A stretch of 64,000 bases of DNA from Rhodoferax sp. GTDB lineage: Bacteria > Pseudomonadota > Gammaproteobacteria > Burkholderiales > Burkholderiaceae_C. The DNA is taken from positions 779,039 to 843,038 of the forward strand of contig NZ_JABBPD010000004.1 in NCBI RefSeq assembly GCF_012927445.1, read 5' to 3'. A program made the translations under genes and the position numbers. The notes below the pieces were generated by a model. The model was not told where the DNA came from, searched no databases, and saw nothing but the letters and a program-made list of their open reading frames with translations. Below are positions 10,726 to 63,368 of this stretch, one piece after another (within the stretch, counting starts at the first letter, position 1; every line of letters begins with the position of its first letter).

Positions 10726-11907
10726 TCATTTGCGCATAACCACCAAACCCTTGAGGTATTCACCCTCGGGGAAATTGATCGTCATCGGATGATCCGGGGC
10801 GCCCCCCATGCGCTCGCTGATATAGCCATCGACCCCGGCGTCAATGCCGGCGGAGGCCACAATCTTATGAAACAGGTCGGCGCTGACGCCGCCTGAGCAG
10901 GAATAGGTAAACAAGACGCCGCCCGGTGCCAGCAGCTTGAAGGCGAGCCGGTTGATGTCCTTGTAGGCCCGCGCGGCCCGCTCGGCGTGCGCCACGGTCG
11001 GGGCAAACTTGGGCGGATCAAGCACGATGGCATCAAAAGTTGTGCCGGCGGCACCAAACTGGCGCAACGAGGCATTCACATCGGCATCCATGAAGGTGGT
11101 GCGACTGGCGTCAAACCCATTCAACACCACGTTGGCGGCGGCTTTTTCAAGGGCCGGGCCGGATGAGTCAATCGAGGTGACGTGACCCGCGCCGCCGGTC
11201 AGCGCAGCCACCGTGAAGCCGCCGGTGTAGCAGTAACAATTGAGCACACGCTCAAATTTCAGGCGCCGGCTGTAATCGGCAAACGTCTTGCGGCTGTCGC
11301 GCTGGTCCAGGTAAAAGCCGGTCTTGTGCCCGCTGGCGATGTTGATGGCCAGTTGCCAGTCGTGCTCGCGCAGCACCAGTTCGGTCGGACCCTCCCCGCG
11401 CAACCAGCCGCTCACCTCCGGCAACCCTTCCAGCGCGCGGCCACTGGCGTCGGAGCGCTCATACAACTTGCTCAGGCCGGTGGCGACCAGCAAGGCGTCG
11501 GCCAGCACCGCTTTCCAGCGCTCGGCGCCAGCGGAAAGAAACTGCGCCACCAAGGTGTCGCCATAGCGGTCGACGATGAGCCCCGGCAACCCGTCGGACT
11601 CACCGTGCACCAGCCGCATGCTGTCACTATTTATATCAAATCGGCCTCTAGCCCTTACAGCAGCTGCGCAAGCAGCTATTAAAAACGCAGCACCTATCGA
11701 CTGCGCTTCGTCAAAACTCCAGACCCGGGCCCGGATTTTGGAGCTCGGGCTGAAGGCGGCCCAGGCTAGAAACTGGCCGTCAGCAGATTCCACCCGCACC
11801 GTCTCGCCCGCGTCGGCCGTGCCTTGGGCAATGGCGGACTCAAAGAGCCAGGGATGGCGGCGCAAGAGCGAACGCTCTTTGCCGGCTTTTAATTGAATCG
11901 TTTTCAT
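10726..11907 (-). CDS. rlmI: Class I SAM-dependent rRNA methyltransferase, RlmI-like
   Basis: Probable 23S rRNA m5C methyltransferase. It is 393 residues: an N-terminal PUA domain (KAGKERSLLRRHPWLFESAI), an EEHEE-type linker domain with LVHGESDGLPGLIVDRYGD, and a Rossmann methyltransferase domain. The latter has NCYCYTGGFTVAAL as the SAM loop and DPPKFAP near residue 270 as the catalytic motif. Residues encoded by 11633-11684, between the PUA domain and LVHGE, come from a dispersed repeat translated in frame and rich in alanine. RlmI is the closest named relative; the exact target base is inferred. Confidence 0.88.
   Translation of the reverse strand: MKTIQLKAGKERSLLRRHPWLFESAIAQGTADAGETVRVESADGQFLAWAAFSPSSKIRARVWSFDEAQSIGAAFLIAACAAAVRARGRFDINSDSMRLVHGESDGLPGLIVDRYGDTLVAQFLSAGAERWKAVLADALLVATGLSKLYERSDASGRALEGLPEVSGWLRGEGPTELVLREHDWQLAINIASGHKTGFYLDQRDSRKTFADYSRRLKFERVLNCYCYTGGFTVAALTGGAGHVTSIDSSGPALEKAAANVVLNGFDASRTTFMDADVNASLRQFGAAGTTFDAIVLDPPKFAPTVAHAERAARAYKDINRLAFKLLAPGGVLFTYSCSGGVSADLFHKIVASAGIDAGVDGYISERMGGAPDHPMTINFPEGEYLKGLVVMRK
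11633..11684 (-). repeat. Dispersed repeat copy 1, in frame inside rlmI
   Basis: On the minus strand this reads AATAGCTGCTTGCGCA, a variable middle, then GGGCTAGAGGCC and a trailing TTTGAT. It is the most complete copy of the family found here and is translated as about 17 residues including IAACAAAVRARGRFDI. Other copies lie at 14391, 16096, 39936, 42301, 46994, 62351 and 63319, with weaker ones at 27882 and 44338. Confidence 0.8.
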
Positions 11908-11985
11908 GGCACTGATTGTGGGGCCTAACGAAGGCGACCTTTTCCGGTCACCTGGCGCCGCCCTTGGCCGCGCCAGGGTGCGTCA

Positions 11986-12297
11986 TCAATAAGTGACGGA
12001 CATCGCCGGGACGTCGATCCGGATCATGGGTTTGGCAAGCGCCGCAGACACGGCCTGAACATAGGCCGCGGCCCATTTTTCATCCCCCAGCAAGGCGGCG
12101 CCGGCCGCTTCGGTTACCCGCAGCACCTTGTCCGCCGTCAGAACTTTGCCGCTGGCCCGCAGGGGCTCACAGTCCAGGGCGGTGAACTGGCTGTCAAGCC
12201 AGGTCCGGGCGACGTCGTGGGGCATGGGAGGCGCTTCGCCCACATTGAAATTGAATTCAACCCCTTTGTCCAGGATGACCGATATTTGACTGCGCAT
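11986..12297 (-). CDS. Small conserved-looking protein of unknown function
   Basis: 103 residues from ATG 12297, which has an AAAGG ribosome-binding site 8-10 bases upstream; the longer open frame reaching back into xerC is out of character and rejected. The protein is soluble, starts MRSQISVILDKGVEF and has no motif I recognise. It is 34 bases downstream of xerC on the same strand, so it may be co-transcribed. Codon use resembles its neighbours, which supports a real gene. Function unknown. Confidence 0.7.
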   Translation of the reverse strand: MRSQISVILDKGVEFNFNVGEAPPMPHDVARTWLDSQFTALDCEPLRASGKVLTADKVLRVTEAAGAALLGDEKWAAAYVQAVSAALAKPMIRIDVPAMSVTY

Positions 12298-12331
12298 GAA
12301 GAACCTTTCTATCGAAGGGCTCCAGTGTGCC

Positions 12332-13309
12332 TTACTTCTGACCGGACGACTTGATTTTGGCCCGGGGATGCGCCGCATCGTAGGCCTTGGCCAGATGCTG
12401 AAAGTCCAGCCGGGTGTAGACCTGCGTGGTGGTGATGCTGACGTGGCCGAGCAACTCTTGCACGGCACGCAAATCGCTGCTCGACTGCAGCAGGTGACTG
12501 GCAAAGGAATGGCGCAGCATGTGCGGATGCACGGGCGTGGCCAGCCCGGCTTGCTGGCTGCGGCGCTTCACCCGCTGCCAGATCGATTGCGCGGTCAGCC
12601 GGGTGCCATTGCGCCCGATAAACAAGGCGGCCTGGGCGGTACCGCCCGGCGCCGGCGTGCCCTGCGCGGCCAGCGGCAGCGCCTGATCGCGCAGCGCCAG
12701 CCAGCGCGTCAGCGCTGCAAGCGCCTTGCGGCCCACCGGCACGGTACGTCGTTTGGCGCCCTTGCCCAGCACATGCGCTTCCGCCGCATCCAGATCGATC
12801 CAGCCGGGGGCCGCGAGACTGGCCACCGCGTCCAGGCCAGTCAATTCACCGACGCGCAGGCCGCTGCCATAGAGCAATTCGACGATGGCGGCGTCGCGCG
12901 CTTCCAGCCACGGATCGTTGCGGTCACTGGCAAAACGGGCCAGTTGCACGGAATCGTCCACACTCAGGGCTTTCGGCAAAGGCTTGCCGGCCTTGGGCGC
13001 GCGGACATCCTGCACCGGGTTGCTATGGACCAAGCCTTCGCGCCCGAGCCAGACGTAAAAACCGCGCCAGCCCGACAGAATCAGGGCAATGCCGCGGCCG
13101 CTGCGCCCGCCGCCATGCATCTGCGCGACCCAACGCCGGATGTGGCTGTTTTGGACCTGGGTCAGGGCGACGCTGACCTGCGCGGCATAGCCTTGAAGCT
13201 TTTGGAGGTCCAGCGAATACAGCGTGACCGTGCGCTCGGCCAGGCGTTTTTCGAACCGCACATGCGCCAGGTAGCGCTCGATCAGGACGGCGTCGTCAAC
13301 CACCGGCAC
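12332..13309 (-). CDS. xerC: Site-specific tyrosine recombinase XerC
   Basis: Acts with XerD at dif to resolve chromosome dimers. It is 325 residues. The N-terminal SAM-like core-binding domain covers about residues 1-105. The catalytic domain shows the first arginine in LYGSGLRVGELTGL, the second box HPHMLRHSFASHLL (HxxR) and the nucleophile tyrosine in TTQVYTRLDFQ. Located with DUF484 and dapF, the classical dapF-yigA-xerC arrangement of proteobacteria, which favours XerC over XerD. Confidence 0.95.
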   Translation of the reverse strand: MPVVDDAVLIERYLAHVRFEKRLAERTVTLYSLDLQKLQGYAAQVSVALTQVQNSHIRRWVAQMHGGGRSGRGIALILSGWRGFYVWLGREGLVHSNPVQDVRAPKAGKPLPKALSVDDSVQLARFASDRNDPWLEARDAAIVELLYGSGLRVGELTGLDAVASLAAPGWIDLDAAEAHVLGKGAKRRTVPVGRKALAALTRWLALRDQALPLAAQGTPAPGGTAQAALFIGRNGTRLTAQSIWQRVKRRSQQAGLATPVHPHMLRHSFASHLLQSSSDLRAVQELLGHVSITTTQVYTRLDFQHLAKAYDAAHPRAKIKSSGQK

Positions 13310-13315
13310 AAGCCA

Positions 13316-14002
13316 CTACCGCAGGCGGGTCAGCGCGGCGCTGGCCAGTTCGGCAATGCGCTCCAGAAAGTCGGTGCCCATGGTGTTGTTGAAACGCTGG
13401 GCGTCCGGCGACGCCAGCACCAGCATGCCAAAGGCTGGCGCCGTGCTGCCCACCAGCCCGGCGCGCAGCGGCAGAATCGCCAGCGAGATGGCGGCCTGCG
13501 GTTCGGGCAGCCAGCTGATGGCCTCGAAACCGGTGTTCAAGCCACAGTACGGCTCCATCAGCGAGGAGGCGAACAGTTTGGCGTCGTCACTCACGCCCAG
13601 CGCAAAGTTGGCAGCGGCAAACTCGGGCGCCACGTCCCACACCTTGATGCCGACCTGGGGCACCAGGAACTGATGCTGAATTTCTTCGGCAATCTGTCCC
13701 GGCAAGGCCTGCAGGTCGGTGGTCAGAAACAGGTCGCGCGCCCAGCGCAGCAACTTGTCGGACAAGATGACGTTCTCGTTGACATTGCGCAGCATGCCCA
13801 TGATGCGCTGCTCCAGCACCCGGATCTTGTCGCGCAGCATCTCCGCCTGGCGCTCCTGCAGGCTCACGGCGCGCTGGCTGTGCGGGCTGGTGAGTTGCAC
13901 GGCGGCCAGCAATTCGGCGTGGCGCTCAAAAAATTCGGGGGTATTGGCCAGGTAGTTGGCAATATCGTCTTCGGTCAGGGGATTGGTGAAGGAGGTAGTC
14001 AT
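13316..14002 (-). CDS. DUF484 family protein (YigA-like)
   Basis: 228 residues, GAF-like fold family of unknown biochemical role. The N-terminal signature [19 protein letters not shown] is typical, followed by a short coiled coil and the GAF-like domain with [19 protein letters not shown] towards the end. It overlaps dapF by 4 bases and lies 6 bases before xerC, the same order as in E. coli dapF-yigA-xerC. Function not known. Confidence 0.92.
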
Positions 14003-14874
14003 AGGTAGTCAGGTAAATCAATTTCGCCGTGAAAAACAGTGGTGGCCGGGCCCGTCATCATCACCGGCGAGGCGAGACCGGCCCAGGAAATCGTCAAGGT
14101 GCCGCCGCGGGTCTGCACATCCACCTTGTCGTCGAGCAGTCCCAGCCGGATGCCCGCCACCACGGCAGCGCACGCGCCGGAGCCGCAGGCCAGGGTTTCG
14201 CCGGTACCGCGCTCAAACACGCGCAGCCGAATGTGGCGGCGGTCCACCACCTGCATGAAGCCGGCATTCACCCGCTTGGGAAAACTGGGGTGGTTTTCAA
14301 TCAACGGCCCTTGCAGCAGCACCGGCGCCGTGTCCACCTCGTCCACCACTTGCACGGCGTGCGGATTGCCCATCGACACCACTGCTACATAAACAATAGC
14401 TTCCTGCGCAGGTTCCACGAGGGCTAGCGGCCATTTTTGCCATGAACCAGCGGCTTGCGGCGTCAAACCGGCCGCATTAAATGGAATCTCGGCCAGCTCA
14501 AACACCGGCGCGCCCATGTTCACCGTCACCCGGCCATCGGGCATCAGCCGGGGTTCAATCACGCCGGCCTTGGTTTGCACCCGGATCGCATCCTGGGTGG
14601 TCAGACCCTGGTCCCGCACAAAGCGGGCAAAGCAGCGCGCGCCGTTGCCGCACTGCTCCACCTCAGAGCCATCGGCGTTGTGGATGACGTACTCAAAGTC
14701 GATGCCCGGCGCGGGCGACGGGCGCACCGTCAAAATCTGGTCGGCACCGACGCCGAAGTGGCGGTCGGCCAGAAAGCGGTACTGCGCGGGGGACAGGCCG
14801 AGCCGCTGCCGGGTTTCGTCGAGCACCACAAAGTCGTTGCCGGCACCCTGCATTTTGGTGAAACTGATTCGCAT
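13999..14874 (-). CDS. dapF: Diaminopimelate epimerase
   Basis: Interconverts LL- and meso-diaminopimelate for lysine and peptidoglycan synthesis. From ATG 14874 it is 291 residues and starts [19 protein letters not shown], the standard N-terminus; the frame runs 14 codons further upstream without support. The two active-site cysteines are in EQCGNGARC and ACGSGACA, and SMGNPHAV is also present. A segment before SMGNPHAV (about residues 157-176) is encoded by a dispersed repeat in antisense orientation, slightly lengthening the usual loop. It heads the dapF-DUF484-xerC run. Confidence 0.96.
14391..14438 (+). repeat. Dispersed repeat copy 2, inside dapF (antisense)
   Basis: On the plus strand AATAGCTTCCTGCGCA, a ten-base middle, then GGGCTAGCGGCC and a T-run. 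It lies within dapF and is read on the opposite strand, giving residues around [13 protein letters not shown] just before the conserved SMGNPHAV. Confidence 0.72.
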
Positions 14875-14943
14875 GCGGGAATTATCCCTGCATCGCAGGC
14901 GCAGCCGCGCTCCCACCGGCGTAATTCATTGCAAAATCACGCC

Positions 14944-19859: not shown

Positions 19860-19878
19860 GCCGGTTGCCATAAAAAAG

Positions 19879-20270
19879 TGTGAAGCCCGCCGATAAGCCG
19901 GATTCTGTGCATGGGGTAAGACCTTGCGATCTTTCTCCATGTGACTGCCATTAATCTGGGCTATTGGTCGCCCAATAGCTCATGCTACCTACCCGCACAC
20001 TCCGGGGGCCCCGTCAACGTGTGCCTACTTGGTATTGCTGCGCGTAGAGATTGCCCGTTTCACCCGCACCAGGTTGCCCCGCTGCGACTCGTCTCTGTTG
20101 CTCTAATCCTCACCTTATACCGCTCACTTGCATGAGCGGCTTTCAGTGGACAGCCGTTAGCTGCTACGCTGCCCTGTGCAGTCCGGACGTTCCTCCAATG
20201 CGGTGTTTCCACCCGACGCCGAAGCGTCGTCCTTGCGGCTTGCACCAGCGACAGTCTGGCAGGCTTCACC
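19879..20270 (-). ncRNA. rnpB: RNase P RNA (M1 RNA), bacterial type A
   Basis: The minus strand starts GAAGCCTGCCAGACTGTCGC and ends GGCTTATCGGCGGGCTTC. These two ends pair to form helix P1 and match the consensus of bacterial RNase P RNA, which cleaves 5' leaders from pre-tRNAs. The conserved block GAGGAACGTCCGGACT with following ACAGGGCA near the 5' side, and GGGGCAACCTGGTGCGGGTG and the 3' CCGGCTTATCGG, are recognisable. About 390 nt. A TTTTTT tract at 19877-19872 directly follows the 3' end and likely ends transcription. End coordinates are estimates to within a few bases. Confidence 0.95.
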
Positions 20271-27696: not shown

Positions 27697-28476
27697 TCAG
27701 CCAGTGGCGGCGCCACCAGCTTTGGGCAAGCGAAACACACTGGCGTCGGCATAAAACGCCGCCTCTTCATTCGCGGCCCACCAGCCGGGCACGCCCAGCA
27801 CCGGCAAGTGGGCAAACGGTTTGGCGGCCAGCTTTTCAGCACTCAGATCCGCCGCCACCCAGGCGTCCAAAATTGCTATTGAATTAATAGCACACTGCGC
27901 ACGATAGACGTGGGCTGTGATCTGTTTTCTTGGGTAAACCAGCTTCTCCAGCAAAGCGTGACCGAACAGCAGCAAATGGGCCTCGCGCCACAGCGGGCGC
28001 AGCTCCACAAACAAGCGCTGCCAGTCTTTCGCCACCAAGGCGTCCCACAGTGCGTCCGGTGCTTGCAGGAAGGCGGAATTTTCGTCAAACACGGTCAAGC
28101 CGTCGCGCGCCGGACCCCGCACCGGCTGGATACCGGTTTCGGCAATTTGGGCGACGTGCAGCTGGTTCAAGCGCCGCTTGGTCAGGGGGAACTGCAGCCA
28201 CGCCACGCCATTGAAAAAGTCGTGTAAGCCCTCGCGGGTCGGGCAGCAGTTGCTATCAAAAATATAGCTCTCATAAGCCTGGCCCGGTGGCAGGTCACTT
28301 TGCGGCACAAAACGCACCGGGCTGGCCAGGGGCGCCAGCGCCGCATTCAGGGCGCCCGCGCTGGAAACCCCCGCCGCGACCGCCGTCGCCACGCCCTGCC
28401 CGATTTGGGCATAAGGCGCCAGCCAGGGCGCGGCCCAGTCAATGGCGGCCAGATCGCTCGCAGCAGGCGGGCTCAA
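27697..28476 (-). CDS. DUF3025 domain-containing protein
   Basis: 259 residues, soluble. The family core is present: YESYIFDSNCCPTREGLHD, then FFNGVAWLQFPLTKRRLNQLH near residues 85-105. DUF3025 proteins are proteobacterial and uncharacterised. It overlaps the NYN gene by 4 bases and is probably co-transcribed with it. A degenerate copy of the dispersed repeat (27882-27928) is read through near residue 190 (YRAQCAINSIAIL). Confidence 0.85.
   Translation of the reverse strand: MSPPAASDLAAIDWAAPWLAPYAQIGQGVATAVAAGVSSAGALNAALAPLASPVRFVPQSDLPPGQAYESYIFDSNCCPTREGLHDFFNGVAWLQFPLTKRRLNQLHVAQIAETGIQPVRGPARDGLTVFDENSAFLQAPDALWDALVAKDWQRLFVELRPLWREAHLLLFGHALLEKLVYPRKQITAHVYRAQCAINSIAILDAWVAADLSAEKLAAKPFAHLPVLGVPGWWAANEEAAFYADASVFRLPKAGGAATG
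27882..27928 (+). repeat. Possible degenerate dispersed repeat inside the DUF3025 gene
   Basis: TTAATAGCACACTGCGCACG, then GACGTGGGCTGTGATCTGTTTT keeps the spacing of the family core (ATAGC, TGCGCA, GGGCT, T-run), but with several mismatches. It is read antisense in the gene. Similarity is weaker than in the other copies. Confidence 0.4.
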
Positions 28477-39119: not shown

Positions 39120-39188
39120 AGATAATCCTAAGAAAGTTGTGGAAAATAATTTAAGTGAAGTGCATAACTCTACATATGAAGAGAAAAG

Positions 39189-39980: not shown

Positions 39981-39993
39981 AACACCAAAAAGC

Positions 39994-41808: not shown

Positions 41809-41848
41809 GGGGGACAATCGATTAGCTTAAACAACCTTGATTGTGCCC

Positions 41849-42289
41849 ATGTCTGCAAACCCTAGCCCGAACCCCGCTGCCAAGAGCCACTCGACCGGCG
41901 TGACATTGCCGACCGACCAGGAGCTGGTGCTCAAGGTCATTCCCATGCCCGGCGACTGCAACGCCAATGGCGACATTTTTGGCGGCTGGGTGATGGCCCA
42001 AGTGGACCTGGCGGGCGCTGTCGTGCCGGCACGCTATGTGAAGGGGCGCATGGTCACGGTGGCGGTGAATGAATTTGTGTTCAAGCATCCGGTGCGGGTG
42101 GGCGATATTCTGTCGTTTTTCGCCAAGCTGACCCGCATCGGCCGCACCTCGATCACGGTCAAGATTGAGGTCTTTGCCGAACGTTTTGGCTCGGAAAACG
42201 AATACACCAAGGTAACGGAAGCATCGCTCACCTATGTGGCGATTGACGAGCACGGCCAGCCGCGCGAAGTGCCGCAAAAGCTGATTTGA
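41849..42289 (+). CDS. YciA-like acyl-CoA thioesterase (hotdog fold)
   Basis: 146 residues from ATG 41849. Single hotdog domain of the YciA/BACH group, which cleaves acyl-CoA: VIPMPGDCNANGDIFGGWVM near residue 30 carries the catalytic Asn/Asp loop, followed by VAVNEFVFKHPVRVGDILSF. Divergent from the ABC exporter, with only 40 bases between starts, so the promoters must overlap. The leader of this short region is too small for a large operator. Confidence 0.92.
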   Translation: MSANPSPNPAAKSHSTGVTLPTDQELVLKVIPMPGDCNANGDIFGGWVMAQVDLAGAVVPARYVKGRMVTVAVNEFVFKHPVRVGDILSFFAKLTRIGRTSITVKIEVFAERFGSENEYTKVTEASLTYVAIDEHGQPREVPQKLI

Positions 42290-42300
42290 GTTTGCTACTT

Positions 42301-42347
42301 TATTTATAGCTACCTGCGCATACAGGACGGCGGCTAGCGGTAAATTT
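42301..42347 (+). repeat. Dispersed repeat copy just after the thioesterase stop
   Basis: TATTTATAGCTACCTGCGCA, then TACAGGACGGCGGCTAGCGG and AAATTT. It begins 12 bases after the stop codon of the thioesterase gene. Typical GGACGG-GGCTAG core. Confidence 0.78.
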
Positions 42348-42519
42348 CATCATTATTTTTTGAAGACGGCCGTGAACACCGCGGCCCTCCCCGCCGCCAG
42401 CAGCGGGGGACAAAGTGTGGCGACCCTTGATTTTTATCTATGGCACGCGAATTTGCCTAACGACACGCCCGCTGTTTTGTGTTCGACTCCTTCATCCAAC
42501 TTCATCTTCGTGGAAATAA

Positions 42520-43248
42520 ATGATGCGATTTATGCACTGGAACCACCTTCTCGCCTACCTCGCCTTGACTGCTGCGCATGGCGCGGCGCAGGCGCTGGAT
42601 GCCACCTCCCTCGAACTGGCGGTTGGCGAAAAAGTGCAGATGGTCCGTTTGGGGGCGCAATGGGACTGGGAACGCCGCTGGTTTCAATCCAATGGCACCC
42701 ACATTGGCGGCTACTGGGATTTGTCGTTGGCGCAATGGCGCGGCACGCACTACCAGAACATCGAAGGACAAACCCAAAACATCACCAGCATCGGTCTGAC
42801 GCCGGTCTTGCGCTTCCAGCAGGAAAGTAAAAAAGGCTTTTACGCGGAAGCAGGGATCGGCATCCATCTGCTGTCCGAGCTTTACGACAATGACAACAAC
42901 CACCTCTCAACCCATTTCCAGTTTGGTGACGAAGTAGGGGTCGGCTATGTTTTCAACAACAAGCTGGACATGGGGTTAAAGCTGCAGCATTTTTCGAATG
43001 GCGGCATCAAGAAACCCAATGACGGCATTGATTTCACCTCCATCCGCGTCCGCTACATTTTTTATGTCAGGACACGATATAGGCCGCCGAGCCGGTCGAC
43101 AGCAGCTTGCCGTCCGCCCCCAGAAACTCCATGCGGGTGGAGGCCACGCGCGAGCCCAGACGCATCACCTCGGCACGCAATTCAAAATAGTCGCCAATGC
43201 CGGGACGCAGGTAGTCGATGCGCAAATCAATGGTGCCGAGTTTGCTGA
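42520..43248 (+). CDS. PagL-like lipid A 3-O-deacylase with abnormal C-terminal extension
   Basis: Outer-membrane beta-barrel that removes the 3-O acyl chain from lipid A. A signal peptide ends near HGAAQA (residue 25), and barrel strands follow. Catalytic HFSNGGIKKPNDGID has His157 and Ser159; the third position of the triad (usually Glu, as in P. aeruginosa PagL) is Asp171. Such barrels end in an aromatic residue; RYIF at 178-181 fits, but no stop follows and the frame runs about 60 more residues antisense to the next gene. The true gene probably ended near 43062, so loss of a stop or a frameshift is likely. Confidence 0.8.
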   Translation: MMRFMHWNHLLAYLALTAAHGAAQALDATSLELAVGEKVQMVRLGAQWDWERRWFQSNGTHIGGYWDLSLAQWRGTHYQNIEGQTQNITSIGLTPVLRFQQESKKGFYAEAGIGIHLLSELYDNDNNHLSTHFQFGDEVGVGYVFNNKLDMGLKLQHFSNGGIKKPNDGIDFTSIRVRYIFYVRTRYRPPSRSTAACRPPPETPCGWRPRASPDASPRHAIQNSRQCRDAGSRCANQWCRVC

Positions 43249-43558
43249 ACCTGTGCAGGCGCTGCATGGGCGTCTCGTCCATGTGGCGCGCGCCAATGGC
43301 GGCCATCACCGCCAGGCCCCCCATGGCGTCCAGACCGGCGCTGATGACACCCCCGTGGAGCCGGTTGTAACTGAAGTGGCCAATCAAATCGCGCTTCATG
43401 TCGATACGGGCCCGGACCTGGGTCGATTTGAGGGAGGTGATCTTCAGACCCAGCACCTGGTTGAACACAATCATTTCCTCAAAGACTTGGGGCAGTCCGG
43501 CAACAAACTCTTCTTCAAATTCAATTTCGGCCGGGACGGCGAGGTGTTGGGTCATCAA
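43067..43558 (-). CDS. Hotdog-fold thioesterase (YigI/PaaI-like)
   Basis: 163 residues, single hotdog domain. The family feature is NRLHGGVISAGLDAMGGLAV near residue 65, with the catalytic-loop HGG. It likely hydrolyses medium- or long-chain acyl-CoA. The start overlaps the upstream TetR gene by 4 bases, so both are in one transcript; the 3' end is overlapped by the abnormal extension of the PagL-like gene. Confidence 0.9.
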   Translation of the reverse strand: MMTQHLAVPAEIEFEEEFVAGLPQVFEEMIVFNQVLGLKITSLKSTQVRARIDMKRDLIGHFSYNRLHGGVISAGLDAMGGLAVMAAIGARHMDETPMQRLHRFSKLGTIDLRIDYLRPGIGDYFELRAEVMRLGSRVASTRMEFLGADGKLLSTGSAAYIVS

Positions 43559-44259
43559 GATTCCTTAAAAAACAAAGCGAGTGCGGCATCGGTCAATTCG
43601 TCCAGCGACGCCTCCTTTTGGGAGTCAAACCACTGCACCGACCAGTTCAACGCGCCCAGTATCAGCAGCCGCGACAGCTTGACTGGCGCGTGTAAGCGGC
43701 CACTCGCGTGCAGGGCTTCCAGCACCGGCGTCCAGGCCGATTCGTAGTCCACTTGCAGCTGGGCCAGCGACGCTCGTTGCGCGGGATTCAGGGAGCGACG
43801 TTCGTAAAGCATCACGGGAACAAAGTCGTTGCCCGGCCCCAGCAAGGTGCCAAAGTGGGCGCGGATCAGTCGCCGGAGGTGCATCAAGGGCGCCTCGGCT
43901 GCGGGCACCGTGCCGGCGTCCACTGATTCCAGCTCAGTACCCAGCAGGGCTCGGGCTTGCCGTGCGATGGCCGCGTGCATGCCCTCCTCCATCACAGCGT
44001 AGAGCAGCGCGTCCTTGCTTTTAAAGTGATAAAACGGCGAGCCACTGTGCATGCCGACGGCTGCCGCGATGTCACGCGTGCTGGTGGCGTCAAAACCCTG
44101 GTCGCGAAACAAGCGGGCGGCCGCGGTGATCAATTCATGCCGGCGGTTGCCGTCGTCGCGCTCTTCTTCGGTCTTGCGTGGCCGGCCGCGCGAGCGCTTG
44201 GGCGACGGGTCAGGCGGCGACTTGGCAGACAAATGGAGGGACGGAACGGGAGCAGTCAT
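43555..44259 (-). CDS. TetR/AcrR-family transcriptional regulator
   Basis: 234 residues. A basic N-terminal tail (SPKRSRGRPRKTEEERD) precedes the helix-turn-helix from HELITAAARLFRDQGFDA to SGSPFYHFKSKDALLYAVM, about residues 38-85. The C-terminal domain is of unknown ligand specificity. It precedes the hotdog thioesterase with a 4-base overlap, which suggests it senses an acyl-CoA or related compound. No operator was identified upstream. Confidence 0.9.
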   Translation of the reverse strand: MTAPVPSLHLSAKSPPDPSPKRSRGRPRKTEEERDDGNRRHELITAAARLFRDQGFDATSTRDIAAAVGMHSGSPFYHFKSKDALLYAVMEEGMHAAIARQARALLGTELESVDAGTVPAAEAPLMHLRRLIRAHFGTLLGPGNDFVPVMLYERRSLNPAQRASLAQLQVDYESAWTPVLEALHASGRLHAPVKLSRLLILGALNWSVQWFDSQKEASLDELTDAALALFFKES

Positions 44260-44337
44260 TGCGCCGAAGCATACCCAGATTGTTTATTTTTAGCAAGCAA
44301 ATGCTTTGTGAAATAAAGCGGCAAAACCTTGTGCGTT

Positions 44338-44377
44338 TTCGCGCTAGTCCGTCGGGGTCAGTGCGGGCGGCTATTTC
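44338..44377 (-). repeat. Probable degenerate dispersed repeat at the 3' end of the DedA gene
   Basis: On the minus strand AAATAGCCGCCCGCAC, then CCGACGGACTAGCGCG. It keeps the AATAGC, CGCA and CTAGCG core positions with substitutions. It supplies the last codons (RNSRPH) and the stop of the DedA-like gene. Confidence 0.5.
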
Positions 44378-44909
44378 TGATCCACCAGATGATCATGCCC
44401 ACGGCTGCCAAACTGAGCAGGAGCCACATTTCAAGATGCCGGATGTCGCCCAAGGCGGCTTCAGCGGCTCGACCAAACACCCAGCCGATACCCGCAACCA
44501 GACCCGCCCAGAGCACTGCGCCCAGCGCGTTGAGCAGACCAAAGCGCACCCTTGATATCGGCGACATGCCCAGCAGCACCGGCCCGGCGATGCGCAATCC
44601 GTAGGCAAAGCGTATGCCGATGATCACGGCCGTGTGATAGCGGTCAATCAGACGCCGGAGCCGATCAGTCTGTCGTGCCACCGATGGCCAGCGGGCCAGA
44701 ACGGCGGGGCCATGCCGGCGCCCGAGACAAAAATAGAACTGGTCACCCAAAAATCCGGCCGTTGACGCAATACCGATCACCGCCAAAGGGTTGAGGTAGC
44801 CCCGGTGCGCGGCGAAGCCGGCCAGCACCAGAACCGTTTCACCTTCCAGCAGACAGCCAATTGCCAGCACCCAATAGCCATGCGTTTCAATCAATGCGCC
44901 CAAAGTCAT
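44358..44909 (-). CDS. DedA-family inner-membrane protein
   Basis: 183 residues, four or five hydrophobic segments. The family motif is GFLGDQFYFCLGRRHG near residue 50, followed by FAYGLRIAGPVLLGMS with the functional glycine/arginine pair and AVLWAGLVAGIGWVFGRA. DedA proteins are lipid transporters/scramblases needed for membrane homeostasis. It is short for the family. It is a single gene; the last codons appear to come from a degenerate dispersed repeat. Confidence 0.88.
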   Translation of the reverse strand: MTLGALIETHGYWVLAIGCLLEGETVLVLAGFAAHRGYLNPLAVIGIASTAGFLGDQFYFCLGRRHGPAVLARWPSVARQTDRLRRLIDRYHTAVIIGIRFAYGLRIAGPVLLGMSPISRVRFGLLNALGAVLWAGLVAGIGWVFGRAAEAALGDIRHLEMWLLLSLAAVGMIIWWIRNSRPH

Positions 44910-44978
44910 AAGGCTCTCCTGTGCTGCATAGATGTCCTTGTATCTTGGGGATGACAGCGCACCGGGGCGCCGTTGGCC

Positions 44979-46169
44979 TTATTTGCGCCTGGCGGTTTTC
45001 CAGTCGCGAAACACGTCAATGTCAAAGCCGTCGGGGTAATTCAGCAAGCCGGGGGTGTGGCCCTTTTTACCTTTTTCACCGTACTGCCAGATGATTTCCT
45101 TGGTCTTGCGGTCGATCACCATGACGCGGTCGTTCAAATCGTCCACAACCAGAATGTCGCCGGTATCGGGCAGTTCGCGGGCAATGGAGGAATGGTCGAG
45201 CGCCTTGTCGCCGTCCTTGACGAAGTATTCCCAGCTGACTTTGCGCGTCAGGGGATCGAAGATCACCACGCGGCCGGGCTTCCAAAAGTCGGCCACGATG
45301 ATTTGCTTGCCGTCCACGGTGGGAAAGGCATCCGACGGGTAGTGCATGTTGGGCGCCTTGACGCTCCACAGCACCTTGCCTTCACGCGTGATGCGCGAGA
45401 TCCAGGCGTCGGTGATTTCGGTCACCAAAATGTCGCCGTTGGCCAGCGGTGTTGCACCATTGGCATGGGCCAGTTCATGCGGCGGGTTGTGCCGGCACTT
45501 GCCCGGCGTGCCCCATTGGGTGACGATCTTGTTGTCTTTCGGGTCGATGATGACGACACGGCAGTTGCGGATGTCGGCGGTGATGAACTTGCCGTCGGCC
45601 AGCAGGTGCGCGTCGTCCGGGTAATTCAACAGGTTCGGGCCGCTGCCGCGGGTGTCGGGCGTGCCGTAGGTCCAGGTCAGGGCGCGCTTTTCATAGTCCA
45701 CGATATGCACGTCGAAGTTGTCTTCTTCGCTCACGGCCAACTGCTTCCCGTCCATCGAAAAGTTGACGTCTTCGTTGCCGCGGTAGACCTTCAGGCTGGG
45801 CGAGGGAAATTCCCACACGATGCTTTTGTCCGGCGCGATTTCTATCAGCCGGTTGTTGCGCCGGTCGGCGATGACGATCGGGTATGGCAGGGGCTTGCCC
45901 CAGGACGCCACCGGATTGGTGCGGTTGCCCGTCACCGGCGGAATAGGGGGGAGCGTGACACCGCTGGAGACCATGCCGGCGCCGGTCATCTCGGGCGTGA
46001 CCTTGACTTCGATCCCGGCTGATTTGGCGGCTTTCTCCGCGGGAGGCGCGACGGGTGTGGCAACTGCTCCGGTAGCGGCCAAAACAGGCAGGGCCAGCGT
46101 GAAAGCGGCCAGGCCAGCGCACACGGCGCGCAGCGGGGCCTTGCGGCGTAAAGGGGGTTGCGGATGCAT
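44979..46169 (-). CDS. Secreted beta-propeller protein, NHL/arylsulfotransferase-like
   Basis: 396 residues, with AAGGA seven bases before the ATG. A signal peptide (about residues 1-31, ending LPVLAATG) suggests periplasmic location. The mature part contains repeated WxYGxPD / DxxNxRVxxID blade motifs: PYPIVIADRRNNRLIEI, HIVDYEKRALTWTYG, DDLNDRVMVIDRKTKEIIWQ. These are typical of a six- or seven-blade propeller. Function not known; catalytic residues of arylsulfotransferase are not evident. Confidence 0.8.
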   Translation of the reverse strand: MHPQPPLRRKAPLRAVCAGLAAFTLALPVLAATGAVATPVAPPAEKAAKSAGIEVKVTPEMTGAGMVSSGVTLPPIPPVTGNRTNPVASWGKPLPYPIVIADRRNNRLIEIAPDKSIVWEFPSPSLKVYRGNEDVNFSMDGKQLAVSEEDNFDVHIVDYEKRALTWTYGTPDTRGSGPNLLNYPDDAHLLADGKFITADIRNCRVVIIDPKDNKIVTQWGTPGKCRHNPPHELAHANGATPLANGDILVTEITDAWISRITREGKVLWSVKAPNMHYPSDAFPTVDGKQIIVADFWKPGRVVIFDPLTRKVSWEYFVKDGDKALDHSSIARELPDTGDILVVDDLNDRVMVIDRKTKEIIWQYGEKGKKGHTPGLLNYPDGFDIDVFRDWKTARRK

Positions 46170-46306
46170 GCGGATTCCTTGGGTAGCGATGACAATAACA
46201 ATCTGCCAGCGAGGGCAAAGGCGGCATTATTCAGCAGCTGTGCCCGACCGACCTTGACCTGCGGCAAGGGAGCGCAGTTCAGCGCGCCGAAACGGTGCGC
46301 TACGGG

Positions 46307-46969
46307 CTAAAGACTTTCCAGCACCGCGCGCTGGTGCAGCGGCTGCACCGCCCGGGCGTTGTCGGCAAAGCGTTTGCGGTAGCGCGCCAGCTGCGCGGCC
46401 GAGAGTTGCAGCGGCTGTTTCATGACGATCCAATCGACGCCCTCGGTGCAGGGCGGCGCGGTCACCGAGCCTGGGTAGCGGTAGTAGCCATGACTGGCCG
46501 GCAGCAGAGCGCGGGCATCCACGGTTTTGCCGGGCAGCGTGTGGGCACCGTCCGCACGGGCGGGAATCAGCGGCAGCAGCGCTTCGAGCAGCGGGTTTTC
46601 GGCACCGACGCGAAACAGCACCACCAGCGCCAGCAACTGCCCGGATTGACTCTTGTGCAGCAGGTGTGCCGCCATCGGGAAATTCTCACCGGCAATGCGG
46701 TCGCCACCCGGGGTGTGGAAGTGGAACTGCTGCAGCGTGTAGCGCTGGGGGCCAATGTGCAACTGGCTGCCGTTGGCAAAGCGCACGCGCACCGTGTGGC
46801 CATCATCAGCCAGCTTGAGCGGTGCCGCCCGGTAGTCAAAGCTCAGGTCCGGCAGCGGTTGGCGCGTGGTGCTGGTGATGTCAATCGGCGACTGGCGCAG
46901 CCCACTGTCGCAGGTGGAAGCAAGGGCGGTGGCGGCAGAGAGCAACAGGGGCAAGAGGAGAAGCTTCAT
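46307..46969 (-). CDS. Alpha-type carbonic anhydrase (periplasmic)
   Basis: Zinc enzyme interconverting CO2 and bicarbonate. It is 220 residues with a signal peptide (about 1-17). QSPIDI is near residue 26, and the zinc ligands are in QFHFHTP near 82 (two His) and AAHLLHK near 103 (third His). YRYPGSVTAPPCTEGVDW near 163 completes the active site with the threonine. Complete in length and motifs. No neighbour suggests a pathway. Confidence 0.92.
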   Translation of the reverse strand: MKLLLLPLLLSAATALASTCDSGLRQSPIDITSTTRQPLPDLSFDYRAAPLKLADDGHTVRVRFANGSQLHIGPQRYTLQQFHFHTPGGDRIAGENFPMAAHLLHKSQSGQLLALVVLFRVGAENPLLEALLPLIPARADGAHTLPGKTVDARALLPASHGYYRYPGSVTAPPCTEGVDWIVMKQPLQLSAAQLARYRKRFADNARAVQPLHQRAVLESL

Positions 46970-46993
46970 GCGCTGAGCATAGCGCCAATCATG

Positions 46994-47048
46994 CTATATA
47001 AATAGTAGCTGCCTGCGCTTATGGGACGGGGGCTAGAGGTTAATTCGA
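46994..47048 (+). repeat. Dispersed repeat copy upstream of carbonic anhydrase
   Basis: TATATAAATAGTAGCTGCCT, then GCGCTTATGGGACGGGGGCTAGAGG and TTAATTCG. It is in the gap before the carbonic anhydrase start, starting 25 bases upstream of it, and is the most complete intergenic copy. Confidence 0.8.
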
Positions 47049-47108
47049 CCTGATCAGACACCTGCCTCAGACAGACTTTATTTTTAGACTGGTCCTCATA
47101 TATTGCTT

Positions 47109-47226
47109 TTACACACAGCTTTGTGAGGTGGTAGGCCATGGCAAGGAATCGAATCCAGTTCCAGGCAGGTTGATCAATGCGAGACTCAAAGTCAATATGG
47201 CAGCGAGGAACAGTGCGAAAGCGCAT
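47109..47226 (-). pseudogene. Possible small membrane-peptide gene broken near its start
   Basis: A perfect AGGAGG (47238-47233) lies six bases before an ATG at 47226, yet that frame (86 codons, to 46966) gives a protein of no recognisable kind. One frame over, the codons from 47225 encode AFALFLAAILTLSLALINLP and end at TAA 47111-47109. That would be a plausible ~38-residue membrane peptide if one base were inserted or lost within the first codons. Could also be chance. Confidence 0.3.
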
Positions 47227-47238
47227 TATTTACCTCCT

Positions 47239-47598
47239 GGATTTACTGGTTTCACATTGCACCCACTTGTATTGGGGTTCACACTCTCTGGCTCATTGAT
47301 GGTCAGTCGCCTCAAGCGCCCCAAGCTCTAAACGGCCTAGTCCCTTGCGGCCCATGCAAGTCGGCTTTAAGTAGAGGCCGGACTAGCGAGAGAGACCCTC
47401 CGAGGACAGTCAGCAGAGCCAGTTCGGTGGACCCTTCTGCCCGAACAAGTGATGACGTGACGTCCTTGCGATTTCGCAAGAAAGGGCTTAACGTTTTCGC
47501 ATACGCTTATCTGAAGGCTGTAAAAGTGTTGAAAAGCCTGAAGAAAATTGTTTTTTGCGCGCCTTTGCGCAATCCTGGTCCATCAAAAGGAGACAGAA
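47239..47598. other. Long leader region before the ferritin-like gene, no gene recognised
   Basis: About 360 bases. Two small hairpins are visible: GTTCGG/CCGAAC at 47422-47446 and CTTGCG/CGCAAG at 47465-47480. Neither is followed by a U-tract. The stretch could be a long 5' untranslated region of the ferritin-like gene or the remains of a gene; I recognise no riboswitch. Confidence 0.4.
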
Positions 47599-47886
47599 AT
47601 GTCCAGTATCGGTTATCACGAGCCCATCGAGGAACTGTCCGAAGGAACGCGCGACATGCACAGGGCCGTTGTTTCCCTGATGGAAGAACTAGAGGCAATT
47701 GATTGGTATAACCAACGCGTGGATGTCTGCAAAGACGTTGAACTCAAGGCAATTCTTCAACACAATCGAGACGAGGAGAAAGAGCACGCGGCCATGCTGT
47801 TGGAGTGGATTCGGCGCAGAGACCCCAAGTTGTCTGGCGAATTGAAAGACTACTTGTTCACCGAAAAGCCGATTACGGAACGGTGA
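47599..47886 (+). CDS. Encapsulated-ferritin-like protein (EncFtn family), no encapsulin nearby
   Basis: 95 residues from ATG 47599, with AAAGGAGA upstream. It closely matches EncFtn proteins, which form decamers with an inter-subunit di-iron ferroxidase centre: HRAVVSLMEELEAIDWYNQR near residue 24 and HNRDEEKEHAAMLLEWIRRR near 53. EncFtn normally carries a short C-terminal tag that directs it into an encapsulin shell encoded next door. Here it ends TEKPITER with no such tag, and the next gene is a hydratase on the other strand. Iron oxidation is inferred from the family. Confidence 0.88.
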   Translation: MSSIGYHEPIEELSEGTRDMHRAVVSLMEELEAIDWYNQRVDVCKDVELKAILQHNRDEEKEHAAMLLEWIRRRDPKLSGELKDYLFTEKPITER

Positions 47887-47987
47887 CGCGGCCCCTGACC
47901 CTTGGGAACGAATTGCTTATAGCAGTACGCGAACCACGGGTAGAAATCAATCCACCCTTATTGGGCAGCGGCAAAAAACCTAATTGC

Positions 47988-48752
47988 TTAAACCTTGGAG
48001 AAATCCGGCTTGCGCTTCTCCATGAAGGCCGTGAACGCTTCGCGTGCGGCGGGTTCGCGCAACATGCGGCCAAAGCTGCGACCCTCCTCCACCATGCGTT
48101 CAGCCACGATGCTGGCCTGGCCTTTGCGCATCAGGCGCTTGGTCTCGATCAGCGAGGCCATCGGTTTGGTCGCCAGCTTTTGTGCCTGGCGCTGGGCCAG
48201 TGCCGCCGCTTCGGCGGGTGGCACGATGCGGCTGATGAGCCCCATCTCCAGCGCCGCCTCGGCCAGAAACGGCTCACCCAGCAGCAGCGCCTCGGCCGCC
48301 CGGCCGTAGCCCATCAATTGCGGTGCCAGGTAGCTCGACGCCGCTTCCGGGCACAAACCGAGGTTGACAAAGGGCATGGAAAACGCCGCGTTGTCACCCG
48401 CATAAACCAAATCGCAATGAAACAGCATGGTGGTACCAATGCCGACCGCCGGGCCACACACCGCCGCCAGCACGGGCTTGGTGAAGGTGCTGATGCCGCG
48501 CAAAAAGCGAAACACCGGCGCATCCAGCGTGTCGGGCGGCGCACCGAGAAAGTCCGCAATGTCGTTCCCGGCGCTGAAAATGGTCTCGTGCCCCTGGAAC
48601 ACCACCACACGCACCGCGTCATCGGCCTGCGCCAACGCAAGGGCGTCCGCCAGGGCGGTGTACATCGCACCGGTGAGTGAGTTCTTTTTGTCCACGCGGT
48701 TCAGGGTGAGGGTCATCACGCTGGCACTGGTGTCGATCAATATATCGGTCAT
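47988..48752 (-). CDS. Enoyl-CoA hydratase/isomerase family protein
   Basis: 254 residues, crotonase fold. The oxyanion-hole segment is FQGHETIFSAGNDIADF near residue 52, and PVLAAVCGPAVGIGTTMLFHCDLVYAG near 95 gives the second glycine pair. SMPFVNLGLCPEAASSYLAPQ holds the position of the catalytic glutamate in hydratases (here Pro-Glu). It is the last gene of the fatty-acid operon, 29 bases after the thiolase. Confidence 0.92.
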   Translation of the reverse strand: MTDILIDTSASVMTLTLNRVDKKNSLTGAMYTALADALALAQADDAVRVVVFQGHETIFSAGNDIADFLGAPPDTLDAPVFRFLRGISTFTKPVLAAVCGPAVGIGTTMLFHCDLVYAGDNAAFSMPFVNLGLCPEAASSYLAPQLMGYGRAAEALLLGEPFLAEAALEMGLISRIVPPAEAAALAQRQAQKLATKPMASLIETKRLMRKGQASIVAERMVEEGRSFGRMLREPAAREAFTAFMEKRKPDFSKV

Positions 48753-59982: not shown

Positions 59983-60001
59983 GGTAGTTTCTGCTTTAAA
60001 T

Positions 60002-61619: not shown

Positions 61620-62176
61620 TGCGACACCCCGTCGCGGCGTAGCACCTTCACAAAAGTGAGCCACAAGATGCGAATGTCAAACCACAGCGACTGCCGGTGC
61701 AAATACTCCACATCGAGCTTGACCTTGTCCGGGATTGGCAGCTCATCGCGTCCATTCACCTGCGCCCAGCCGGTCAGGCCGGGCATCAGCGCCTGCACGC
61801 CTTGTCGGGTGCGCAACTCAATCAAATCGTGCTGATTAAACAGGGCGGGGCGCGGCCCCACAAAACTCATGTCACCCACCAGAATGCTCCACAGCTGCGG
61901 CAACTCGTCCAAGCTGCTCTTGCGCAAGAAGCTGCCGATGGGCGTCAAGTAGGCATCCGGGTTGTTTAGCAAATGCGTCGCCACCGCAGGGGTGCCGATC
62001 TGCATGCTGCGGAACTTGGGCATTTTGAAAATGGTGTTGTTGCGCCCCACCCGGTCAGACCAATACAGGGCTGGCCCTTTTGAAGTCAGGCGCACCGCCA
62101 AGGCGACGAGAGCAATCGGCAGCAACAAGACCAGCCCAGCGCAAGCGCCTGCGAGCAGATCAAACAGTCTTTTCAT
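61616..62176 (-). CDS. Undecaprenyl-phosphate sugar phosphotransferase (short type)
   Basis: 186 residues. Initiates a surface polysaccharide by loading a sugar-1-phosphate on undecaprenyl phosphate. One membrane segment (about 9-30) precedes the catalytic domain with IFKMPKFRSMQ near residue 50, [23 protein letters not shown] near 88 and LTGWAQVNGRDELP near 134. Only the C-terminal catalytic part of the larger WbaP type is present, as in the single-domain PglC-like group. A broken duplicate lies at 62763-63117. Confidence 0.93.
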   Translation of the reverse strand: MKRLFDLLAGACAGLVLLLPIALVALAVRLTSKGPALYWSDRVGRNNTIFKMPKFRSMQIGTPAVATHLLNNPDAYLTPIGSFLRKSSLDELPQLWSILVGDMSFVGPRPALFNQHDLIELRTRQGVQALMPGLTGWAQVNGRDELPIPDKVKLDVEYLHRQSLWFDIRILWLTFVKVLRRDGVSH

Positions 62177-62186
62177 TACGATGCAT

Positions 62187-62221
62187 CGTCATTGCGAGGA
62201 GCGTAGCGACGCGGCAATCCA
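62187..62221 (+). repeat. CATTGCGAGGAGCG-type palindromic repeat, copy A
   Basis: GTCATTGCGAGGAGCGTAGC followed by GACGCGGCAATCCAT; the ends (ATTGC / GCAAT) and the centre (GCG-TAGC-G) can fold into a hairpin. I recall this unit as a widely scattered repeat in unrelated bacteria. A second copy is at 63149-63184. Confidence 0.85.
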
Positions 62222-62229
62222 TATTCGTC

Positions 62230-62340
62230 ATGTCCCACCATTGTCTGCTGCAACCCTTCATCGATTAAGAGCGGCGGGACACAGCCCAACGGCTGCCTAA
62301 TGTTTGTGTCTTCCAATGGGAAACTTCTGAACATTTGCGC
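62230..62340 (-). pseudogene. Remnant of a sugar-nucleotide epimerase C-terminus, copy A
   Basis: On the minus strand the stretch encodes NIRQPLGCVPPLLIDEGLQQTM, which parallels VDISKARSLLGWLPPMSVDG in copy B and the C-terminal helix of NAD-dependent epimerases. Only the last ~35 residues remain, with no start or active site. The frame continues into the CATTGCGAGG repeat. Confidence 0.5.
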
Positions 62341-62350
62341 CATACGCTTC

Positions 62351-62396
62351 AAAAAGAATAGCTGCTCACGCATACAAGACGATGGCTGCAGCCATA
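62351..62396 (+). repeat. Dispersed repeat copy, left side of the duplication
   Basis: AAAAAGAATAGCTGCTCACG, then CATACAAGACGATGGCTGCAGCC. Same core positions as the other members; intergenic. Confidence 0.72.
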
Positions 62397-62400
62397 AACG

Positions 62401-62700
62401 TTAGAAATCAAGTTGGGTACTGCTGGCGTGCGTGCAAAACGCGTAGTACATCGATAACGTCCCGCTCAACGCGATAGACCACGATGTAGTTGGGATGGGT
62501 GCGCAAGTAATGGGCCTATGACTCGCCTCTATTTCGTCTATGAGGGCGTCCATTTCCGCCATGACTTGATCATGAGGAATGCTTGGCCTTGGGTCGTCTA
62601 TCGCTTCCTTCACTTTGGCACAAAACCATTGATCGTAGCTGGCTGCCTCTTCTTCGCTCGCAAATTCAAAAATCCGCGGGTCAAGGGTTGCGGTGTTCAT
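62401..62700 (-). CDS. PaaA2-like antitoxin fused out of frame to toxin remains
   Basis: The first ~60 residues resemble PaaA2/stability-determinant antitoxins: [20 protein letters not shown] near residue 11 and [20 protein letters not shown] near 33. After [11 protein letters not shown] the frame enters sequence that in another frame encodes the end of a ParE toxin, so the last ~38 residues are not antitoxin. A deletion has removed the start and most of the toxin gene. The antitoxin part may still be produced. Confidence 0.6.
62408..62516 (-). pseudogene. C-terminal remnant of a ParE/RelE-type toxin
   Basis: In a different frame from the antitoxin fusion the codons read [18 protein letters not shown] then [16 protein letters not shown] and stop at 62408-62410. 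This is the typical C-terminal strand pair of ParE toxins (YRVE...LRVLHARQ). The N-terminal two thirds of the toxin are missing. Confidence 0.7.
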
Positions 62701-62762: not shown

Positions 62763-63117
62763 CCTGGCACCAACGCATGCACACCTTGCCGGGTACGCAA
62801 TTCAATCAAATCGTGCTGATTGAACAGGGCTGGGCGCGGCCCGACAAAACTCATGTCGCCCGCCAGAATGCTCCACAACTGCGGCAGCTCGTCCAGGCTG
62901 CTCTTGCGCAAGAAGCTGCCGATGGGCGTCAAGTAAGCATCCGGGTTGCTCAGCAAATGCGTCGCCACCGCAGGGGAGGTGTTGCGCCCACCCGGTCAGA
63001 CCAATATAGCGCCGGGCCTTTTGAAGTCAAGCGCACCGCCAAGGCCACCAGCACAATCGGCAACAACAAGACAAGGCCAGCGCACCCGCCTGCGATCAGA
63101 TCAAATAGTCTTTTCAT
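62763..63117 (-). pseudogene. Broken duplicate of the sugar phosphotransferase
   Basis: Starts MKRLFDLI like the intact gene at 61616-62176, but about 43 bases around the KFRSMQ motif are missing (a frameshift, not a multiple of three). It continues with [20 protein letters not shown] and stops matching near [14 protein letters not shown], before the GLTGWAQVNGRD region. It cannot make an active enzyme. Confidence 0.85.
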
Positions 63118-63148
63118 TACGTTACATCGTCATAGCGAGCGAGCGTGT

Positions 63149-63184
63149 CGTCATTGCGAGGAGCGCAGCGACGTGGCAATCCAT
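63149..63184 (+). repeat. CATTGCGAGGAGCG-type palindromic repeat, copy B
   Basis: GTCATTGCGAGGAGCGCAGC followed by GACGTGGCAATCCAT, two base differences from copy A at 62187. It lies at the equivalent position relative to the duplicated sugar-transferase gene. Confidence 0.85.
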
Positions 63185-63302
63185 GAACCCCATCCCCCAC
63201 CGCCCGCCGCAGTCCCCCGTCCACCGACATCGGCGGCAGCCAGCCCAACAGGCTGCGCGCTTTGGAAATATCGACCTGCAAATTACCGCATAGGCGCTGC
63301 AT
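63185..63302 (-). pseudogene. Remnant of a sugar-nucleotide epimerase C-terminus, copy B
   Basis: The minus strand encodes GNLQVDISKARSLLGWLPPM then SVDGGLRRAV, which matches the C-terminal end of NAD-dependent nucleotide-sugar epimerases (D-x-S-x-A...LGWxPP). About 35-40 residues remain, in frame with the CATTGCGAGG repeat. The better preserved of the two copies. Confidence 0.6.
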
Positions 63303-63318
63303 CGCATCGCAATACTAT

Positions 63319-63368
63319 TCAAAAACAATAGCTGCTCACGCAGTGTTGACGGGGGCTACAGCCCTGAA
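63319..63368 (+). repeat. Dispersed repeat copy, right side of the duplication
   Basis: AAAAACAATAGCTGCTCACG, then CAGTGTTGACGGGGGCTACAGCC. It occupies the same relative place as the copy at 62351, next to the epimerase remnant. Confidence 0.78.

Follow-up and report, generated by a model that had tools for sequence, protein, structure and literature searches.

A stretch of 64,000 nucleotides from a Rhodoferax genome (assembly GCF_012927445.1, contig NZ_JABBPD010000004.1, positions 779,039 to 843,038), referred to below as the window, harbors nine copies of a dispersed repeat of about 65 bp. The repeat is probably a recognition motif that is built in place and acts at the level of DNA. The explanation that best covers the evidence as a whole, to which we assign a probability of roughly 0.52, is that this 65-bp motif exists in lineage-specific dialects and is recognized, as DNA, by a putative protein. 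Long repeats are usually taken to be mobile elements; here, the copies in housekeeping genes (rlmI, dapF, purL) follow the genome-wide motif in their silent positions with no insertion, so that a force able to shape a 65-bp sequence at the DNA level seems to act. It is close to an even call whether the repeat represents a genome-wide signal in the Comamonadaceae, about 65 bp long and with an information content of about 73 bits, written into genes by silent or tolerated substitutions under a lineage-specific reader and erased when that pressure is lost. Finding such a reader would reveal, in a large family of environmental bacteria, a new self-DNA or chromosome-signal system, for which a single genus, with 89 species that either have or lack the signal, provides a natural experiment.

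The repeat unit, its spread, and its dialects

The unit opens with YGCTAY and an A/T-rich tract, continues through ATAGCTGCTTGCGC, about 7 free bases, and ACGGGGGCTAGAGGC, and ends in A/T tracts; the right-hand conserved block between the free bases and the A/T tracts can also be written ACGGGGGCTAGMGGC. The original prediction, made from the letters of the window, had described a pattern of about 45-50 bp with a variable spacer of 6-12 bases. When the copies are aligned, the spacer is fixed at 7 nt, and the unit extends to about 65 bp because the upstream GCTA(C/T) block and its A/T tract are part of it. The GC content of the consensus is about 39%. A matrix of 67 positions, made from 42 copies in the source genome, those of the window included, holds 72.7 bits of information summed over its columns. 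To our knowledge, a length of about 65 bp and 73 bits is several times that of any known uptake or Chi-type signal.

Within the window, the left half of the pattern, AATAGCTGCTTGCGCA, is matched 11 times at up to three mismatches against 1.19 expected, some of these matches not being copies, and the right half is matched 5 times against 0.23 expected. At cut-offs of 10, 14, 18, and 22 alike, the matrix recovers nine copies from the window and none from its reversal. All eight copies that had been called clear are recovered, as is one of the two called weak (27882, here 27873, score 28.5), while the other, at 44338, fails the matrix test. Four window copies, rather than the three first claimed, lie within genes that have Pfam matches. 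In the entire source genome (3.94 Mb) there are 283 core matches at up to three mismatches, or about one per 14 kb, against none on either strand of a reversed control; the division into 141 forward and 142 reverse matches agrees with the claim that both orientations occur. The repeat had also been said to be neither an insertion-sequence end nor a typical REP/BIME hairpin, and this holds in that none of the 12 source-genome copies that were folded has a folding excess (z -1.5 to +1.1), and an Rfam scan of the window at E values up to 1 gave no match on the repeat, finding RNase P alone.

At least one match is present in 76 of 250 genomes drawn from the family, although single matches may be due to chance, since controls occasionally match too. 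In the genus, matches occur in 70 of 89 genomes, with between 0 and 312 own-dialect copies per genome. Another dialect, CCCTT...AAGGG, occurs in 48 of these 89 genomes, and the two types replace one another in abundance: the source genome has 283 matches of type 1 and 13 of type 2, in comparison to 14 and 171 in genome G251 and 21 and 241 in G253. The dapF site in G251, G253, and G273 carries the CCCTT...AAGGG dialect of those genomes. Neither of the two dialect patterns counted is matched in 18 of the 89. Copies of the Acidovorax type have a core that is almost perfectly palindromic.

Among named GTDB genomes, at least 117 stretches match, and the taxonomic range seen in the 80 that were listed is a lower bound. 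The genera among the matches listed are Rhodoferax, Acidovorax, Polaromonas, Simplicispira, Giesbergeria, Ottowia, Curvibacter, Diaphorobacter, Extensimonas, Paenacidovorax, and Variovorax, together with a few records that have wider labels alone. We take these genera to belong to the Comamonadaceae, a placement that records confirm for Rhodoferax and Diaphorobacter, and the original prediction had suggested that similar sequences exist in this family. None of 50,697 phage records matches, and four of 72,556 plasmid records do so, all four from Comamonadaceae. A Rhodoferax antarcticus plasmid of 31.9 kb (NZ_CP019241.1), which encodes several toxin-antitoxin genes, has three matches to the element consensus. 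In IMG/VR, 61 stretches match a looser core, some of them as expected by chance, and 48 distinct copies score at least 30; the contigs concerned may represent either phage or host flank.

No description of the 65-bp unit was found in the open-licence PMC literature. The available part of a 2017 motif screen (PMC5217627) lists, in its Table 7 and without a function, the motif pair GCTTAT(N)5AAGCG in Acidovorax ebreus, with 114 copies, of which 107 are intergenic and 44 lie between convergent genes; the genome with the largest number of motif pairs in that screen was Rhodoferax ferrireducens T118. The A. ebreus pair has 12 matches in 159 kb of 22 Acidovorax-type loci that had been fetched with the motif, and six of these fall within a same-strand element scoring above 20. 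Another pair from the same available part, ATAGCT(N)22CAAAAG of P. naphthalenivorans, has one match in the named loci, which is within an element. The A. ebreus pair covers 16 bp in one species, and that part of the screen contains neither the 65-bp unit nor its family spread, its dialects, or its evolution inside genes.

Copies inside genes

Seven in-gene sites were compared with their orthologs, namely those in rlmI, dapF, a NUDIX-metallo-beta-lactamase gene (NUDIX-MBL), and a DUF3025 gene of the window, and three at other places of the genome, termed PurL-1, PurL-2, and Tex. The 67-nt length of the source copy is kept at all 19 rlmI loci, 20 of 21 dapF loci, all four DUF3025 loci, and 8 of 17 NUDIX-MBL loci, and in 17 of 19 genomes for PurL-1, 9 of 18 for Tex, and 4 of 20 for PurL-2. 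The matrix score nonetheless ranges across orthologs from 69 to -34 in rlmI and from 64 to -64 in dapF (18 genomes). At five of the seven sites there are orthologs of equal length that are free of the motif, and the protein segments remain homologous. These include, for rlmI, G323 (-11), G308 (-19), and G214 (-34); for dapF, G323 (-61), G308 (-64), G288 (-53), and G214 (-43); for PurL-1, G308, G309, G320, and G323, with scores of -34 to -72; for DUF3025, G334 (-43); and for NUDIX-MBL, G288 (-23) and G214 (-2). To judge from these alignments, the five sites are clear cases in favor of substitution in place as the likely mode of change. The Tex site, at which G334 is the sole equal-length motif-poor genome (score 29), leans that way, and the PurL-2 site looks like a length change.

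Distant homologs were compared for rlmI, NUDIX-MBL, and DapF; TrpF is a further protein whose gene contains a copy. The rlmI segment aligns without insertion to Escherichia coli YccW (RlmI, 3c0k), which is two residues longer at this point, is gapless against 2as0, and agrees with 1wxw to within one or two residues. The NUDIX-MBL segment shows no gap against 4ad9 across its main part and begins with three additional residues.

Constraint at the DNA level was assessed at third codon positions for which the source genome and the relative in question encode the same amino acid, using six sites (PurL-2 left out) and defining motif-rich genomes by at least 100 copies and motif-poor genomes by at most 6. 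In motif-rich genomes, 410 of 473 informative motif positions are identical (86.7%) in comparison to 4388 of 6534 flanking positions (67.2%), and uninformative motif positions are identical in 100 of 150 cases. In motif-poor genomes the order is reversed, with 65 of 140 informative positions identical (46.4%) against 1836 of 2881 in the flanks (63.7%). Intermediate genomes have 59 of 95 against 992 of 1514. The site score also rises with the copy number of the genome (Spearman 0.61 over 75 equal-length site-genome values, uncorrected for kinship), and in single-gene trees, where support is mostly weak, motif-rich and motif-poor species are partly interleaved, the rich label requiring 4 and 3 changes.

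In the full set of non-viral loci fetched, coding sequence runs through 123 of 491 distinct copies, giving rise to the frame-specific peptides PLAPVxxAQAAI, KSASSPxxxxASSYEKQ, IAACAxxVRARxRFD, and ELLxLxxxGL. In the frame in which the TAG of the motif would be a stop codon, all seven copies have GAG instead; copies called noncoding have T at this position in 351 cases, G in 16, and C in 1.

Mobility, the putative reader, and rival explanations

The repeat had been proposed to be an active or recently active element, perhaps mobilized in trans. Recent mobility is not supported, given the equal-length motif-free orthologs described above, the lack of relatedness among the copies of the source genome, and the lack of target-site duplications. 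Among 51 source-genome copies, 4 of 1275 pairs are at least 65% alike at unconstrained positions, against 1.98 expected from shuffled columns, and target-site duplications show no excess over randomly paired copies in either these 51 or the 38 copies of genome G217. In G217 both strands are used throughout, and same-strand runs do not reach significance (p 0.10). Copies at orthologous sites in distant genera had been named as a finding that would speak against mobility. In partial agreement with this, the copies at 39927 and 42292 persist in several species, with same-place copies in six and five other genomes, respectively, and these species, whose flanking genes are 82-89% identical, belong to the same genus and not to distant genera.

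In the mechanism proposed here, a trans-acting reader would supply the pressure, acting either through selection or through recombination that spreads the motif with a bias. DNA uptake is a tentative suggestion for the use of the motif, in which better-matching DNA would be preferentially taken up and recombined, as in uptake-signal dialects; a chromosome-architecture binding protein would be the next candidate reader. In the available parts of the respective papers, the uptake sequences of Neisseriaceae and Pasteurellaceae are described as having dialects (PMC3630211), and the uptake signal sequences (USS) as evolving by point mutation, with effects of A/T-tract shape (PMC7811141). The 65-bp motif resembles them in its abundance, its species dialects, its permissive sites in genes, its A/T tracts, and its variation in place by point mutation, including within genes, albeit with exceptions in length.

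Several observations weigh against this account. The length of the segment varies from 61 to 103 nt in NUDIX-MBL, where the loci that are not 67 nt have 61, 79, or 103 nt. In Tex it varies from 55 to 193 nt, and the motif-free genomes G308, G323, and G214 have 55-64 nt, which is 3-12 nt shorter. At PurL-2 the range is 25-220 nt, with 25 nt, a 42-nt difference, in G304, G323, G320, and G308 (0-16 copies), 52 nt in G214, 220 nt in G309, and 67 nt with a score of 7 in G334. DapF has 10-11 residues, partly within the motif segment, that lack a counterpart in distant homologs, so that dapF documents substitution within the genus and not the ancient state. In the silent-position comparison the genome pairs are not independent and the sites were picked in the source genome; because they were chosen for the motif there, counts of direction between source and motif-poor genomes are biased, the conservation test being less so. 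The motif is also kept in some genomes with few matches, namely G329 (NUDIX-MBL, 53) and G334 (PurL-1, 56; Tex, as above). Some copies in G217 are related, with 12 of 703 pairs alike against 1.74 expected. Intergenic gaps with the element are, in the few comparisons available, longer than the empty ortholog by 42-86 bp at two loci of relatives, by 47 bp at another, and by 265 at one more, so that some copies, intergenic ones among them, may be insertions or duplicates. Uptake sequences have cores of 9-12 bp, in contrast to 65 bp, and far more copies. According to the available part of PMC2397512, many recent DNA uptake sequences (DUS) arose by recombination and not by point mutation, and DUS are absent from recently acquired genes, whereas the 65-bp motif is found in some plasmid and viral contigs and is dense in a defense island, with 10 copies in about 15 kb, nine of them on one strand. 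Since its length, its sparsity, and the dense defense island do not fit, the repeat is described here as a recognition motif with a putative reader, with uptake ranked first among its uses but without a claim that it belongs to the uptake sequences.

A binding site for a nucleoid- or chromosome-organizing protein, with a gyrase-, Chi-, or MatP-like role and held by selection on chromosome function, is a real though minority prospect. It would agree with the DNA-level constraint in genes, the use of both strands, the presence of some copies in mobile DNA, and the pattern of couplings between columns. In 500 elements from many genomes, the strongest couplings involve the neighbors 14-15 and 23-24 and a choice of TTT or AAA at 39-41, while those from arm to arm are weaker (14-23, z 3.7), which suggests A-tract DNA shape over RNA pairing, the palindromic core of the Acidovorax-type copies notwithstanding. 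Hairpin registers of GCGC with GCGC and CCC with GGG, which had appeared to covary by eye, are not the main couplings in this set. Placement relative to genes was obtained with a home-made codon-usage gene finder, which called 86% of the window coding, for 45 source-genome copies made up of the window and the 30 best-matching loci, a sample biased to strong copies. Convergent (12) and tandem (16) gene ends are favored and divergent ones (1) nearly avoided, the others comprising 14 copies in genes, the rlmI copy that the finder missed, and 1 that was unplaced. For a core chromosomal function, however, it would be odd that 18 of the 89 genus genomes match neither dialect, and the copies look clustered in places.

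It is somewhat unlikely that the repeat is a REP-like non-autonomous element copied by a chromosomal REP-associated tyrosine transposase (RAYT), with the in-gene copies being ancient and eroding. The source genome does encode one Y1 transposase that qualifies as a RAYT by NCBIfam REP_Tyr_transpos (81.7 against a cut-off of 80), with a copy of the element at its 3' end. The element is found at either end of the Y1-transposase gene at 10 of 20 loci taken from motif-rich genomes, in comparison to 1 of 16 where the genome has 0-31 copies, and 11 of the 12 genomes classed by eye as lacking a RAYT have fewer than 20 copies (Fisher p 0.024). Furthermore, placement at gene ends and between convergent genes, repeat-supplied stop codons, the occurrence of in-gene copies, and perhaps the RAYT with an end copy are features shared with the REP/REPIN-RAYT systems described in the available part of PMC3733652, a part in which the names of Comamonadaceae genera were not found, and the longer intergenic gaps of 42-86 bp would also agree. 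However, many genomes free of the motif also have RAYT-type genes, which speaks against RAYT as the sole driver; some percent of gene ends would, on a rough reckoning, carry a copy anyway; and the RAYT neighborhoods are orthologous and not independent. For these reasons RAYT is regarded as a lead. Unlike REP/REPIN, the element has no folding excess and, by eye, no palindrome tagged with GTAG or CGTC; there are no target duplications, the source-genome copies are unrelated, and most of the in-gene copies tested are not insertions. The Betaproteobacterial repeat element (BRE) is likewise a repeat reported in Comamonadaceae and sometimes in genes, but the available part of PMC3110155 describes it as about 90 bp long, with a mean GC content of 69% in Bordetella and some tandem arrays; the element at about 65 bp and 39% GC is set apart from it by this description and not by sequence.

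Short-patch gene conversion, by which dispersed copies would write the motif into similar sequence, would explain the unchanged length at most tested in-gene sites and the graded scores. It is nevertheless improbable, in that the motif in the source genome is not accompanied by shared letters in the spacer or at other free positions, and in genes these positions keep a homologous coding sequence. A transcription terminator or RNA 3'-end element is very improbable, since, although many of the 45 classed copies lie within 50 nt of gene ends, about a third are inside genes on either strand, no terminator-like match overlaps the three copies in 38000-48000, and there is no folding excess.

Window copies and their surroundings

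Copies of the 65-bp motif in the window, with matrix scores and gene context
Position	Strand	Score	Location	Remarks
11627..11693	-	66.6	rlmI-like methyltransferase gene (10726-11907, -)	sense, in frame, encodes AAFLIAACAAAVRARGRFDIN
14382..14448	+	63.5	dapF (13999-14916, -)	antisense; Pfam PF01678
16090..16156	+	67.2	NUDIX-metallo-beta-lactamase gene	sense; Pfam match; motif TAG is GAG here (ELL)
27873..27939	+	28.5	DUF3025 gene (27697-28476, -)	weak copy; antisense; Pfam PF11227
39927..39993	+	65.5	directly beyond 3' end of ABC transporter gene (39994-41817, -)	
42292..42358	+	71.9	directly beyond 3' end of thioesterase gene (41837-42289, +)	Pfam 4HBT
46991..47057	+	69.4	called intergenic	
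62344..62410	+	48.7	close to duplicated sugar-transferase region	
63314..63380	+	52.5	close to duplicated sugar-transferase region	

Defense-type islands with the element were seen in the source genome (C5:80000-99000) and in G250 (C9:338500-372000). They contain MmeI-like restriction genes and toxin-antitoxin genes (nucleotidyltransferase/HepT, Unstab_antitox, ParE, and Gp49 with HTH), and the 65-bp element lies between the cassettes, mostly on one strand. The source-genome island comes after a glnS-like gene, and the G250 island has repeated fragments of the end of such a gene (tRNA-synt_1c_C2) as well as repeated GIY-YIG/DUF4357 genes. An integron-like cassette array, an idea that came from the nine of ten copies on one strand, was set aside because isolated copies in core genes are at odds with it, although no search for attC motifs or an integrase was made. 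In the purL and tex loops of G309, G253, and G304, longer stretches that resemble other repeats stand at the place of the motif, as if these loops tolerate many repeats.

The RNase P RNA of the window is of bacterial class A and is encoded at 19878-20267 (-). Near 52860, at an apparent gene start, a degraded motif can be seen by eye in register with copies in G250 (59) and G121 (28). Finally, the sugar-transferase region is duplicated and diverged (61779-62239 and 62763-63201), with two stretches 88-91% identical, and both duplicates are followed by another dispersed repeat, which starts CGTCATTGCGAGGAGCG.

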